32,494 nt of DNA from Streptomyces thermovulgaris. Lineage in GTDB: Bacteria; Actinomycetota; Actinomycetes; Streptomycetales; Streptomycetaceae. Below, one piece after another: positions 26,674 to 32,427 of the stretch. Positions within the stretch are counted from its first letter, which is position 1, and the number at the start of each line of letters is the position of its first letter. The translations under genes were made by a program, and so were the position numbers. The DNA is taken from positions 1 to 32,494 of the forward strand of contig NZ_MUME01000027.1 of NCBI RefSeq assembly GCF_002155915.1, written 5' to 3'. The notes under the pieces are model-generated. The model ran no database searches, was not told the DNA's origin, and saw only the letters and a list, made by a program, of their open reading frames with translations.

Positions 26674-26801
26674 GGTTTTCGCAGGTCAGCACGCTGCTCC
26701 CGCCGAAGCGGAGGGGGTGCGAAGGCCGCGGCCGGGGCCGTGCCCGCCGGTGGCCGTGCCCTGCCGGAGCCGGGAGTTTCGGGGCGGTTACGCTCGTACC
26801 C

Positions 26802-29171: not shown

Positions 29172-29870
29172 TCAGTCCCCGGAATCCCCCTCGGCCCGGG
29201 CGGTCCCGCCCTCACGCCCTCCCGGATTCCTCGGGAGGGGAGAGGGCTCTGGCGGTCCGCCGGACCGCAACCCCGTCAGAAGGACCCGGGTGAAGTGCCG
29301 TACCCACGCCTCGTCCGCCGGTTCCGCGCTGACGAGGGTGCGGTGGACCACCGTGCCCGCCACCATGTCGAAGATCAGGTCGGCCGTGCGGGCGGCTTCC
29401 TCCGGGTCCGGTTCCCAGGGGAGTTCGCCGCGGGACTGGGCGCGGGCGCGGCCCTCCAGGACCAGTCGTTTCTGCCGGTCCACGATGGAGGCGCGAATGC
29501 GGTTCCGCAGGGCCTCGTCGCGGGTGGCCTCGGCTATCACCGCCATCAGGCCGCTCTGGGCCTCCGGCCGGGCCAGGATCCGGGCGAACTGCAGCACCAC
29601 GCCCTCGAGGTCGGCGGCGAGGCTGCCCCGGTCGGGGAGGCGGAGCTCGTCGAAGAGCCCGGCGACGGCGTCGACGACGAGTTCGCTCTTGCCCGCCCAG
29701 CGGCGGTACAGCGTCGTCTTGGCGACCCCCGCCCGGGTGGCCACGTCCCCCAGGGTGAGCTTGGACCAGCCCAGCTCGACCAGGGCCGCCCGGGTGGCGG
29801 CCAGGATCGCTGCGTCCGCGGCGGCGCTGCGCGGACGGCCGGCGCGGACGGACCGGGTGCGGCTCTGCAT
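29172..29870 (-). CDS. TetR-family transcriptional regulator
   Basis: This 232-residue protein has an N-terminal TetR helix-turn-helix: AAILAATRAALVELGWSKLT followed by LGDVATRAGVAKTTLYRRWA. A ligand-binding region then includes EAQSGLMAVIAEATRDEALR and a Pro/Gly/Glu-rich C-terminal tail of about 30 residues. TetR proteins are dimeric repressors released by a small ligand. AGGG lies about 8 bases upstream of ATG 29870. It is convergent with icmA and divergent from the thioredoxin gene. A 17-bp palindrome (29964-29980) between the two divergent starts is the obvious candidate for autoregulation. Its target genes are otherwise unknown. Confidence 0.92.
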   Translation of the reverse strand: MQSRTRSVRAGRPRSAAADAAILAATRAALVELGWSKLTLGDVATRAGVAKTTLYRRWAGKSELVVDAVAGLFDELRLPDRGSLAADLEGVVLQFARILARPEAQSGLMAVIAEATRDEALRNRIRASIVDRQKRLVLEGRARAQSRGELPWEPDPEEAARTADLIFDMVAGTVVHRTLVSAEPADEAWVRHFTRVLLTGLRSGGPPEPSPLPRNPGGREGGTARAEGDSGD

Positions 29871-29963: not shown

Positions 29964-29980
29964 CGCTACGAGTCGTAGCG
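29964..29980. promoter_or_regulatory. 17-bp palindrome, probable TetR operator
   Basis: CGCTACGA-G-TCGTAGCG is a perfect palindrome with one central base, of the size and form bound by TetR dimers. It lies 94 bases upstream of the TetR start and 170 bases upstream of the thioredoxin start. Confidence 0.65.
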
Positions 29981-30149: not shown

Positions 30150-31121
30150 ATGCAGCCACGGAACATGTCCATGAGCGGAGTCGTCGACCTCGCCGCGGTG
30201 AAGGCGGCCCAGGAGGCGAAGGCGAAGGCGGAGCAGGCGCGCGCGCAAGCAGCCAGGGAGGGCGGCGCGGGGGCGGTCTCCCCGGCCGATCTCGTCGTCG
30301 ACGTCACTGAGGCCACGTTCGAGCGCGACGTTCTCCAGCGCTCCGCCCAGGTGCCCGTCGTCATCGACTTCTGGGCCGAGTGGTGCCAGCCCTGCAAGCA
30401 GCTGAGCCCGGTCCTGGAGCGGCTGGCGACCGAGTACAACGGGCGCTTCCTGCTCGCCAAGATCGATGTCGACGCCAACCAGCTGCTGATGCAGCAGTTC
30501 GGGGTCCAGGGGATCCCCGCGGTCTTCGCGGTGGTCGCGGGCCAGGTCCTGCCCCTGTTCCAGGGGGCTGCGCCCGAGGCGCAGATCCGGCGGACGCTGG
30601 ACCAGCTGGTCCAGGTCGCCCAGCAGCGTTTCGGACTGACCGGCCTGACCGTCGACCCGAATGCCGAACCGGGCGCCGAGGCGGCCTCGAAGACCCCGAC
30701 CGGCCCGTACGCCTCGCTGCTGAGCGCGGCCGTGCAGGCCCTGGAGGCCGGGGACCTGGGCGGCGCCATCCAGGCGTACAAGAACGTCCTGGCCGACGAC
30801 CCGGCCCACCCGGAGGCCAAGCGGGGCCTCGCCCGGGCGGAGCTGCTCCAGCGGGTGCGGAGCATGGACCCGCAGAAGGTGCGCCAGGAGGCGGCCGACA
30901 AGCCGGCCGATGTGCAGGCGCAGATCGCCGCCGCCGACCTGGACCTGGCGGGCGGCCATGTCGAGGACGCGTTCGGGCGGCTCGTCGAGACCGTGCAGCG
31001 CACCGCCGGCGAGGACCGGGACGCGGCACGGCTGAGGCTGCTGGAGCTCTTCGAGGTCGTCGGGCCCGAGGACCCGAGGGTGACGGCGGCGCGCCGGGCG
31101 CTGGCGCGCGCGCTGTTCTGA
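30150..31121 (+). CDS. Thioredoxin-fold protein with C-terminal TPR region (YbbN/CnoX-like)
   Basis: This 323-residue cytoplasmic protein has an Ala/Lys-rich N-terminal helix (AAVKAAQEAKAKAEQARAQA), a thioredoxin domain at about 45-165 with active site WCQPC (Cys79, Cys82) and the cis-Pro loop GVQGIPAVF, and a helical TPR-type region from about 195 to the end (AAVQALEAGDLGGAIQAYKN). This architecture is that of YbbN/CnoX, a chaperone-linked thioredoxin; E. coli YbbN lacks the first Cys, but here both are kept, so redox activity is likely. ATG 30150 has GGGAGG about 9 bases upstream; the frame is open to 30081 without a better site. A perfect hairpin begins 3 bases after the stop. Confidence 0.92.
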   Translation: MQPRNMSMSGVVDLAAVKAAQEAKAKAEQARAQAAREGGAGAVSPADLVVDVTEATFERDVLQRSAQVPVVIDFWAEWCQPCKQLSPVLERLATEYNGRFLLAKIDVDANQLLMQQFGVQGIPAVFAVVAGQVLPLFQGAAPEAQIRRTLDQLVQVAQQRFGLTGLTVDPNAEPGAEAASKTPTGPYASLLSAAVQALEAGDLGGAIQAYKNVLADDPAHPEAKRGLARAELLQRVRSMDPQKVRQEAADKPADVQAQIAAADLDLAGGHVEDAFGRLVETVQRTAGEDRDAARLRLLELFEVVGPEDPRVTAARRALARALF

Positions 31122-31123
31122 AC

Positions 31124-31149
31124 CGGGATCCGGTCCGCACCGGATCCCG
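31124..31149 (+). terminator. Terminator after the thioredoxin gene
   Basis: An 11-bp perfect stem (CGGGATCCGGT with ACCGGATCCCG) and 4-base loop, beginning 3 bases after the stop codon. Confidence 0.85.
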
Positions 31150-31238
31150 TGCGCCGGCCGGGCCCCGTGTACCGGCCGGACGGCACACACCGGGGCGTTC
31201 GATGCCCCGGTGACAGAAGTGGCCGAGGACGCTCCCAT

Positions 31239-31276
31239 GCGGCCGCGCTTTACCAAAACTTGGTAATCGCGGCCGC
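31239..31276. promoter_or_regulatory. Extended inverted repeat flanked by NotI-type palindromes
   Basis: The core TTACCAA-aac-TTGGTAA (31250-31266) is enclosed by two copies of GCGGCCGC (31239-31246 and 31269-31276). The whole forms an imperfect 16-bp stem. Confidence 0.6.
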
Positions 31277-31277
31277 T

Positions 31278-31292
31278 GTTACTGGGAGTAAC
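31278..31292. promoter_or_regulatory. Palindrome GTTACT-n3-AGTAAC
   Basis: Perfect 6-bp arms around GGG. The same arms recur around AGCC at 31407-31422, so this is probably a repeated operator half-site. Confidence 0.6.
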
Positions 31293-31405
31293 TCGGAAGC
31301 GTTGTTCCGCTCTCATCTGTCCGGGCATCAGTGCTTTTGTTCCGCCTTGGACGGCAACCGAGCGTCGCCGTTCGGGACCGAGAGACCGGGTCCCGGTAAT
31401 CCGAC

Positions 31406-31423
31406 CGTTACTAGCCAGTAACG
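31406..31423. promoter_or_regulatory. Palindrome GTTACT-n4-AGTAAC
   Basis: Perfect 7-bp arms, counting the flanking C and G, around AGCC. It uses the same half-site as 31278-31292, about 129 bases downstream. Operator function is inferred from symmetry and repetition. Confidence 0.6.
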
Positions 31424-31531
31424 AACCCCCTTGTGCGGGCGGCGAGAATGCACCACGATCGGCGACGCTCGGTCCATTCCCGTACCCCGGCAGCCGGTCG
31501 GGGGACGGAGTGTCTGGGTCCCCACCGAGCA

Positions 31532-31595
31532 GGGCCGGCGGCAGTGGTGCCGGCCCTTGGACAGGGGGGTCTTCGCTCAATGGCGAAGCCTGTCC
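31532..31595 (+). ncRNA. Two adjacent stable hairpins in the DUF6230 leader
   Basis: The first stem is GGGCCGGC (31532-31539) with GCCGGCCC (31549-31556). Three bases later GGACAGG (31559-31565) pairs with CCTGTCC (31589-31595), enclosing a second stem CTTCGC/GCGAAG with a 6-base loop. These could be a transcription attenuator, an mRNA 5' stabiliser or part of a small RNA. No known riboswitch consensus was recognised. Confidence 0.4.
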
Positions 31596-31797: not shown

Positions 31798-32427
31798 ATG
31801 GAGTCCCAAGTGCGTGGCGGGACCAGATGGAAGCGGTTCGCTGTGGTCATGGTGCCCAGCGTGGCCGCGACGGCGGCGATAGGCGTGGCCCTGGCGCAGG
31901 GTGCTCTCGCCGCGTCGTTCAGCGTGTCGGGCCAGTCGTTCAAGGTGACGGCCGAGAAGCTCGTCGGCAGCGGGTTCTCCCAGTACGGGGCGATCGACTC
32001 GGGCAAGAGCCTGGAGGGCAAGGACGAGCACCACCCGGTCGCGGTCTCGGCCTTCAAGAAGGCCACGATCAACAACCTGTGCCAGTCGGTCGTCACGCCC
32101 ACGCCCTTCGGCAATGTGAGCCTGCTTCTGAGGGCGGGCGGCGGTTCCAAGCCGGTCGAGGCCAGCAACCTCTACATCGACGTCGCTGACCTCAGCGCCG
32201 ACGCGACCTTCAACAACATCGACATCGGTGTGGCGGCCAAGGACGCCAGCAAGGGTCCGGGCATGAAGGGCGGCAGCGAGCAGGCCAACCCCTTCGGTTT
32301 CGCCCAGCAGGCCGACTCGGCCACGCTGACCGACGTGAAGCAGACGGCGTGGGCGACCACCGCCGGAACCTTCAAGCTCAGCGGCCTGAAGATGTCGCTG
32401 GCCACGGGCACCAAGGAGTGCTACTAG
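31798..32427 (+). CDS. DUF6230 family secreted or membrane-anchored protein
   Basis: This 209-residue protein has a Sec-type N-terminal signal or anchor: basic MESQVRGGTRWKRF, hydrophobic AVVMVPSVAATAAIGVALA, then QGALAASF, which offers an A-x-A cleavage site. The remainder is a polar beta-rich domain with VSGQSFKVTAEKLVGSGFSQ and two Cys (NLCQSV and the terminal KECY). Older Streptomyces annotations call such proteins cholesterol esterase, for which I see no catalytic Ser motif. The gene usually precedes a DUF6114 membrane protein gene, which would lie beyond the window. The start is firm: AAGGAGG lies 5 bases before ATG 31798. The leader is long and palindrome-rich. Confidence 0.88.
   Translation: MESQVRGGTRWKRFAVVMVPSVAATAAIGVALAQGALAASFSVSGQSFKVTAEKLVGSGFSQYGAIDSGKSLEGKDEHHPVAVSAFKKATINNLCQSVVTPTPFGNVSLLLRAGGGSKPVEASNLYIDVADLSADATFNNIDIGVAAKDASKGPGMKGGSEQANPFGFAQQADSATLTDVKQTAWATTAGTFKLSGLKMSLATGTKECY

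Follow-up and report, generated by a model that had tools for sequence, protein, structure and literature searches.

The window, by which we mean the whole 32,494-nucleotide (nt) stretch of Streptomyces thermovulgaris DNA that was analyzed, carries in order genes for an MM-CoA mutase, a TetR-type regulator (29172 to 29870, minus strand; Pfam TetR_C_11), a thioredoxin-TPR protein (30150 to 31121, plus strand; Pfam Thioredoxin and TPR_20, with the ATG at 30150 assumed within a frame open from 30081), and a DUF6230 protein (31798 to 32427, plus strand; PF19741, 201.5 bits). The DUF6230 gene is the first of a DUF6230-DUF6114 pair. The window ends before DUF6114, which comes next after DUF6230 in Streptomyces locus L035 and in L192 to L194; in L035, DUF6114 is followed in turn by a frame that has no Pfam match and by the genes for pyruvate kinase and acetate kinase. 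In two published studies, SCO5419 is trxA4 (PMC9952706) and SCO5423 is pyk2, and SCO5420, called a cholesterol esterase, is almost 37-fold up on Tween (PMC7494193). From the positions of trxA4 and pyk2, SCO5420 is therefore likely to be the DUF6230 ortholog by gene order.

DUF6230 genes were present in 61/61 and 45/45 of the Streptomyces genomes searched. The AlphaFold model of the protein (pLDDT 77.6) shows a helix at the N terminus and long beta strands; a fold search against the PDB returned nothing at an E value of ≤0.001, and the family profile matched no PDB sequence at an E value of ≤1. By name, DUF6230 turned up in the full-text literature only in a table of one paper. We set aside Sven_0933, whose 7.2-fold value denotes ammonium repression in PMC3087709, and the passages on a "cholesterol esterase" in PMC4098958 and PMC12772271, since any of them may concern another gene.

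The predicted leader of the DUF6230 gene contains a che1 RNA (Rfam RF02935; 31558 to 31657, plus strand) that scores 93.1 bits against a gathering threshold of 54.1 (E value, 8.3e-15). It clears the Rfam threshold as an element separate from, and downstream of, the palindromes described below. PMC11678152 and PMC8388888 attribute che1 to Weinberg et al. 2017, the former also stating that its function is unknown, and the S. lividans copy is listed before SLIV_11405 in PMC8079986. Directly before che1, at 31531 to 31557, is an inverted repeat (AGGGCCGGC/GCCGGCCCT) with covarying pairs; the Rfam match begins after it.

Upstream of this leader lie three palindromes, exactly where the first-pass annotation had placed them and within a span of 173 bp. 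Site 1 (TTACCAAAACTTGGTAA, 31250 to 31266) forms the tip of a longer inverted repeat at 31239 to 31276, site 2 (GTTACTGGGAGTAAC, 31278 to 31292) reads GTTACT-N3-AGTAAC in the window, and site 3 (GTTACTAGCCAGTAAC, 31407 to 31422) has the form GTTACY-N4-RGTAAC, or GTTAC-N6-GTAAC. The pattern GTTACT-N3/4-AGTAAC, with two matches in the window, averaged 0.00 matches in 100 dinucleotide-preserving shuffles. The genome-wide scan that the first-pass annotation had proposed gave sites 2 and 3 as the sole matches in 6.02 Mb, and relaxing the pattern to TTACT-N3/4-AGTAA added a single match, on contig C512. Site 1 is likewise unique in this genome: both TTRCCAA-N3-TTGGYAA and TTRCCAANNNTTGGYAA matched here only.

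Beyond this genome, the exact GTTACT-N3/4-AGTAAC pattern occurred in 71 of 150 genomes, 64 of the 71 being among the 91 Streptomyces genomes in that set; a reversed control pattern was matched in 6 of the 150. When 24 of the Streptomyces matches were retrieved with their surroundings (L009 to L032), all except L013, L020, and L026 lay upstream of a DUF6230 gene, these 21 loci being a biased sample, as they were picked by the pattern itself. Exact matches to the form GTTACY-N4-RGTAAC number 0 to 4 per genome and were present in 107/121 Streptomyces genomes and in 13/13 genomes of a second family of the order.

We next consider conservation across orthologous promoters, the absence of which the first-pass annotation had named as a finding that could overturn its proposal. 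The 80 loci that one scan ranked as having the closest DUF6230 relatives comprise 79 titled Streptomyces (one metagenome-assembled) and one titled "Actinobacteria bacterium." With L077 left out for having 16 nt of upstream sequence, the comparison set comprised 79 ortholog upstream regions plus the window, or 80 sequences. The arms and their spacing are kept in the 79 Streptomyces ortholog promoters: computed mean column conservation over the 80 sequences is 0.983 for the arms of site 1, 0.977 for site 2, and 0.997 for site 3. The spacers of the three sites lie at 0.646 to 0.888, and the sequence that separates site 2 from the GTTAT half-site described below has a value of 0.783. Neighboring sites are 28 and 129 bp apart in 79/80 sequences and 28 and 128 bp apart in the remaining one. 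The proposal of conserved cis-elements ahead of the DUF6230 gene thus stands, with arm conservation near 1, and the sites are, by sequence comparison, conserved in the manner of functional elements. The block from 31236 to 31475 is 240 nt long in 74/80 sequences, 239 in five, and 236 in one, and the leader downstream varies in length. A coding role for this block was rejected because stops occur in all six frames over the 74 equal-length sequences (in five frames some codon is a stop in 92 to 100% of sequences; in the sixth the maximum is 30%); no clear codon periodicity was seen in the same 74 sequences.

Site 1 probably differs in kind from the other two. The 38-nt inverted repeat that contains it (31239 to 31276, plus strand) is a predicted RNA hairpin of 9 outer and 7 inner pairs. 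A 46-nt fragment carrying the repeat folds at −28 kcal/mol (z = −6.05), with none of 200 shuffles as good. Across the alignment of 80 sequences (62 distinct), 96.0% of the cells in paired columns can pair, and 14 cells are changed on both sides, against 2.6 in shuffles, none of 500 of which reached 14. Double-sided changes fall in five pairs, a number that 6/500 shuffles also reached; two slid versions of the stem reach five pairs as well, but with at most 8 such cells and a covariation score of ≤0.015, compared with 0.088 for the hairpin itself. On a gene tree, 17 changes at these pairs lead to G-U and 3 to A-C (P = 0.0026); 13 exchange one standard pair for another, and 23 give other mismatches. 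The excess of G-U over A-C argues that the plus strand of the repeat likely acts as RNA, and site 1 is probably part of a plus-strand RNA hairpin. The first-pass grouping of the three palindromes into one cluster is not borne out, because site 1 behaves in this way.

The hairpin begins about 118 nt past the thioredoxin stop codon, which ends at 31121, and its source is probably the 3′ part of the thioredoxin transcript. Like intrinsic terminators it is a strong, GC-based, covarying hairpin after a stop codon; unlike them it lacks a T run. No T run follows the stem, so the hairpin departs from the classic definition of an intrinsic terminator, and our terminator scan called none at this place. 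An alternative is that site 1 is the 17-bp DNA operator of a separate homodimer, its outer GC arms being incidental. The inner core, CCAAA-N-CTTGG, is almost invariant. Base pairing alone would not require such conservation, and so a protein may bind there as well. However, the outer arms (31239 to 31247 and 31268 to 31276) covary too, and the 17-to-3 asymmetry is expected of RNA rather than DNA, which leaves a dedicated operator unlikely. Closer to the thioredoxin gene, directly after its stop codon, a perfect 11-bp inverted repeat spans 31124 to 31149, where most orthologs have a gap.

The first-pass annotation had also described sites 2 and 3 as sharing identical half-sites. This holds in the window but not generally: at site 2 the left half is GTTAC in 80/80 sequences, and the right half is GTAAG in 64, GTAAA in 15, and GTAAC in a single one, the window. 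The ortholog form of site 2 is therefore GTTACT-N3-RGTAA[G/A]; TTACT-N3-RGTAA is kept in 79/80 sequences, the spacer being 2 in L108. At site 3, GTTAC and GTAAC are both kept in 80/80. Position 6 of site 3 is T in 77/80 and C in 3/80 sequences, and C in 10/11 of the second family; in every ortholog examined within the order, position 6 is Y and position 11 is R. The suggestion that the sites might form part of a divergent element fails on gene orientation, as the upstream thioredoxin gene has the same direction as the DUF6230 gene.

A third half-site precedes site 3. Located 11 bp before the left half of that site, it reads GTAAT in the window (31396 to 31400, plus strand) and GTTAT in 73/80 sequences; GTAAT, GTCAT, GTGAT, GTTAC, GCTAC, GCCAT, and GACAT occur once each. 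Thus 77/80 sequences fit GTnA[T/C], where each of the four bases is seen at n, and three variants do not. Mean conservation is 0.975 here and 0.783 just upstream. In L247 the third half-site is GTGAC; none was evident in L175, L015, or L030, or in the second family.

Downstream of site 3 we find a promoter-like module with a predicted −35 element, TTGTGC (31431 to 31436, plus strand), and a predicted −10 element, CACGAT (31454 to 31459, plus strand), the latter with a mean conservation of 1.0 over the 80 sequences. From these letters we infer a core promoter at 31431 to 31459 with a start near 31465, which would center site 3 near −51; a consensus promoter scan did not call TTGTGC-N17-CACGAT. 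In a wider set, in which three genomes are counted twice and 21 rows were chosen by the GTTACT pattern, TTG[TC][AG][CT]-N17-CACGAT was present in 42/44 Streptomyces ortholog rows, along with 7/8 rows from genera g3 and g4 of the second family and 0/3 from g5. A recognizable site 2 is missing in 3 of those 44 ortholog rows; the 41 rows that have both sites place them 129 bp apart in 38 cases, 128 in two, and 130 in one. Site 3 was also followed in an independent family search of 29 loci, taken best matches first: it is present in 23/23 orthologs (in L175 as TTTACC..GGTAAC) and in none of the six other loci, a paralog group 50 to 54% identical. Six further Streptomyces loci carry it (L250 is from the same genome as L017).

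Site 3 extends to the second family (g3, g4, and g5). All 11 regions taken as orthologous there carry one site 3, for example GTTACCGGTCGGTAAC, in 11 genomes with 41 to 51% identity, gene order having been checked in three; neither site 1 nor site 2 was found in 13 loci of this family. The full site form is absent upstream of the extra second-family DUF6230 copies L189 and L190. The site lies upstream of the DUF6230 match by coordinates in G100 and on another contig in G105, and no DUF6230 match was found in G102. The sequence after the site in g3 and g4 is GAACCCCTTGT, and 7/8 of their rows have the whole TTG[TC]-N17-CACGAT module. Site 3 together with GAACCCC(C)TTGTGC-N17-CACGAT is thus common to Streptomyces, g3, and g4, nearly letter for letter; in g4 locus L178 the −10 element is kept, and the 17 spacer bases are unrelated in sequence, though equal in number. 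No che1 RNA was found in the four second-family loci scanned, though the family keeps site 3. Outside the order, the symmetric site was present in 0/14 DUF6230 loci; L254, from another order, has GTTACTGAATCGTAAC with the promoter context missing.

The second DUF6230 gene of the S. thermovulgaris genome (L118) has GTAAC-N5-GTAAC and GTTAC-N6-GTAAC upstream. We dropped this layout as supporting evidence because, among the 18 group A paralog loci (L119 to L136, where L119 is the L118 gene), GTTAC-N6-GTAAC is intact only in L119. The first motif is seen in 14 of these 18 loci, where GTAACCnnCGGTAAC lies within an apparent TTGACC-N18-TAACTT promoter. The 12 group B paralog loci have no such motif, except for an unrelated match in L138.

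What might bind site 3? One published box, GTnAC-n6-GTnAC, was derived from GlnR ChIP-chip in S. venezuelae (PMC3087709), and site 3 agrees with it at every defined base. We built a GlnR matrix from 39 printed sites, using the half-site columns only. Site 3 scores 17.0, the best in the 32-kb window; leave-one-out scores of the printed sites have their median at 13.25 and their 90th percentile at 16.3. The second-ranked place is a box at 26776. Third among distinct places comes the pair at 31396 to 31411, in which the third half-site is joined to the left half of site 3. The box at 26776 to 26791 (minus strand) is a GlnR-type GTAACCGCCCCGAAAC near the start of a small membrane-protein-like frame.

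MtrA reads a related sequence. Its site is given in PMC13189361 as GtnAcC-n5-GTnAcn, which is equivalent to GTnAC-n6-GTnAC, so the MtrA form fits site 3 only, and not site 2. Two further studies report an MtrA peak at −50 of its own promoter (PMC5487470) and competition of MtrA with GlnR (PMC9045223). Site 3 shares with MtrA sites (PMC13189361, PMC5650626) the 11-bp pitch and the position near −50, but MtrA sites are described as direct repeats with C after the first motif, while site 3 is a mirror image with T at position 6 in 77/80 sequences. Site 2 differs from them in its pitch of 10 bp. As GTTAC-N5-GTAAR it departs from GTnAC-n6-GTnAC, and it fits this type of box poorly because of that pitch (n5) and because its right half ends without the final C in 79/80 sequences. 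AfsQ1 is also among the response regulators that read GTnAC.

Likeness to a GlnR box extends to the bases of site 3, the 11-bp half-site pitch, and the location upstream of a predicted promoter; unlike such a box, site 3 has Y/R inner flanks and keeps its mirror-image arrangement in all orthologs examined. As a control we examined amtB GlnR arrays, which a strict triple-box pattern located in 0/30 loci, a second pattern in 6/30, and a looser pattern in 24/30. In those 24 loci every base is found at position 6, and C occupies position 11 ahead of GTAAC; the base after the first half-site, free in amtB arrays, is not free in site 3. The constraint on positions 6 and 11 relative to amtB implies that recognition may exceed GTnAC and be truly two-fold symmetric. 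Part of the palindromic look of site 3, on the other hand, arises because GTnAC is nearly its own reverse complement. No such gene is named among the 36 S. venezuelae GlnR peaks of PMC3087709, which would count against GlnR if that species carries the site. The main-text literature searched contained no account of MtrA, GlnR, or AfsQ1 acting here, and motif strings of this form gave a strict match only in an unrelated context. On balance, we tentatively favor, at somewhat less than an even chance, an OmpR-type response regulator reading GTnAC repeats (MtrA, GlnR, or AfsQ1) as the protein that would bind site 3.

The first-pass annotation had instead likened the sites to operators of TetR-type lipid regulators, and one candidate is encoded nearby. 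Between the TetR and thioredoxin genes, at 29964 to 29980, lies a perfect palindrome, CGCTACGAGTCGTAGCG, that is exact, with one free central base, in 44/78 Streptomyces loci (two too-short loci left out); it is the probable operator of the adjacent TetR. We rejected this protein as the sole binder of sites 2 and 3 because its own palindrome is different and because g5 keeps site 3 without a close ortholog. Seven g3 and g4 genomes searched encode a relative with at least 51% identity, and the g5 genomes G098, G099, and G101 have only distant TetR relatives (≤43% identity), yet all three keep site 3; the regulator and the site thus do not consistently co-occur, nor do they share a palindrome. 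Sites 2 and 3 are like TetR-type operators in that they are short, rich in AT against a GC-rich background, and two-fold symmetric, but they have unequal spacers, and the predicted −35 follows downstream of site 3. A rigid TetR dimer is not expected to tolerate two spacer lengths, here 3 and 4 bp. Of the earlier proposal, the conserved cis-elements are supported; the TetR-operator reading is weak, with the different palindrome of the neighboring TetR, the g5 genomes, and the unequal spacers against it. A link to lipids may nevertheless hold, given the Tween response of SCO5420.

A broader version, in which site 3 (and site 2) binds a symmetric, non-GTnAC homodimer encoded elsewhere, for example a TetR-family or lipid- or acyl-CoA-responsive protein with the half-site GTTACY that represses or activates the operon according to lipid supply, is a somewhat less probable alternative. 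The nearly invariant arms of site 3 and the TTACT/AGTAA shared by sites 2 and 3 are consistent with it. So is the change between families, where T6 to C accompanies A11 to G in most loci (GTTACT..AGTAAC to GTTACC..GGTAAC), as are the low number of GTTACY-N4-RGTAAC sites per genome, which would fit a narrow regulator, and the Tween response of the likely ortholog SCO5420 (PMC7494193). Besides the distant g5 relatives and the separate palindrome of the adjacent TetR, the unequal spacers speak against such a dimer, as does the location of site 3 upstream of the predicted −35 and not over the promoter, and it leaves the third half-site at 11 bp unexplained. Going further, sites 2 and 3 might be read by an undescribed Streptomyces regulator (half-site GTTACY) nearly dedicated to the operon, which would bind near −180 and −51, with a loop between them whose length hardly varies (129 bp in 79/80 sequences), and, with the che1 leader, form a two-step switch for a probably secreted, lipid-responsive protein without a known fold; we regard this elaboration as improbable. 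Lastly, sites 2 and 3 could be RNA hairpins of a crossing transcript, without a protein site, given that site 1 already behaves as a plus-strand RNA hairpin. Stems are possible, the fragments of sites 2 and 3 folding at −4 and −8.3 kcal/mol (z = −1.45 and −2.49), and the five inner pairs of site 2 show a single kind of change, T-A to T-G (two events), which would still pair in plus-strand RNA. However, the pairs of site 3 are invariant in the 80 sequences save three changes to C-A, which is unpaired in plus-strand RNA; half-sites and spacing are fixed, whereas the leader changes in length; and site 3 is tied to the promoter-like module in two families. We consider an RNA role for these two sites very unlikely.

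With a GTnAC-reading response regulator as the preferred binder, the best explanation we can offer treats this region as the conserved regulatory front of the DUF6230-DUF6114 operon. The plus-strand hairpin at 31239 to 31276 would end or insulate the thioredoxin transcript, in a terminator-like role. The response regulator would bind site 3 near −51 and recruit RNA polymerase to a weak promoter, TTGTGC-N17-CACGAT, acting by activation and not repression. Site 3 corresponds to the second and third members of a series of half-sites spaced 11 bp apart, GTnAT-N6-GTTAC-N6-GTAAC; site 2, 129 bp upstream of site 3, may be an auxiliary site. The transcript would carry a leader of about 330 nt from the predicted start, containing che1. 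The conserved promoter in this way suggests a testable class of regulator for the DUF6230 operon. Look-alike palindromes are now separated into one probable RNA hairpin and putative DNA sites, and the fragment of interest narrows to 31390 to 31460.

Dyads of the site 3 type at other genes are too few for a regulon to be defined. Three Streptomyces genomes have GTTACC-N4-GGTAAC ahead of an Exo_endo_phos gene (L242, 1481 to 1496; L245, 1521 to 1536; L241, 1492 to 1507), and the dyad in L245 adjoins a divergent MPAB/Lcp oxygenase gene. In genome G092, GTTACCTTCGGGTAAC is found upstream of an Rce1-like (CAAX protease family) gene (L243, 1478 to 1493); G100 has the same layout (L244, 1498 to 1513), and G097 has a GTTACC-N4-GGTAAC dyad too.
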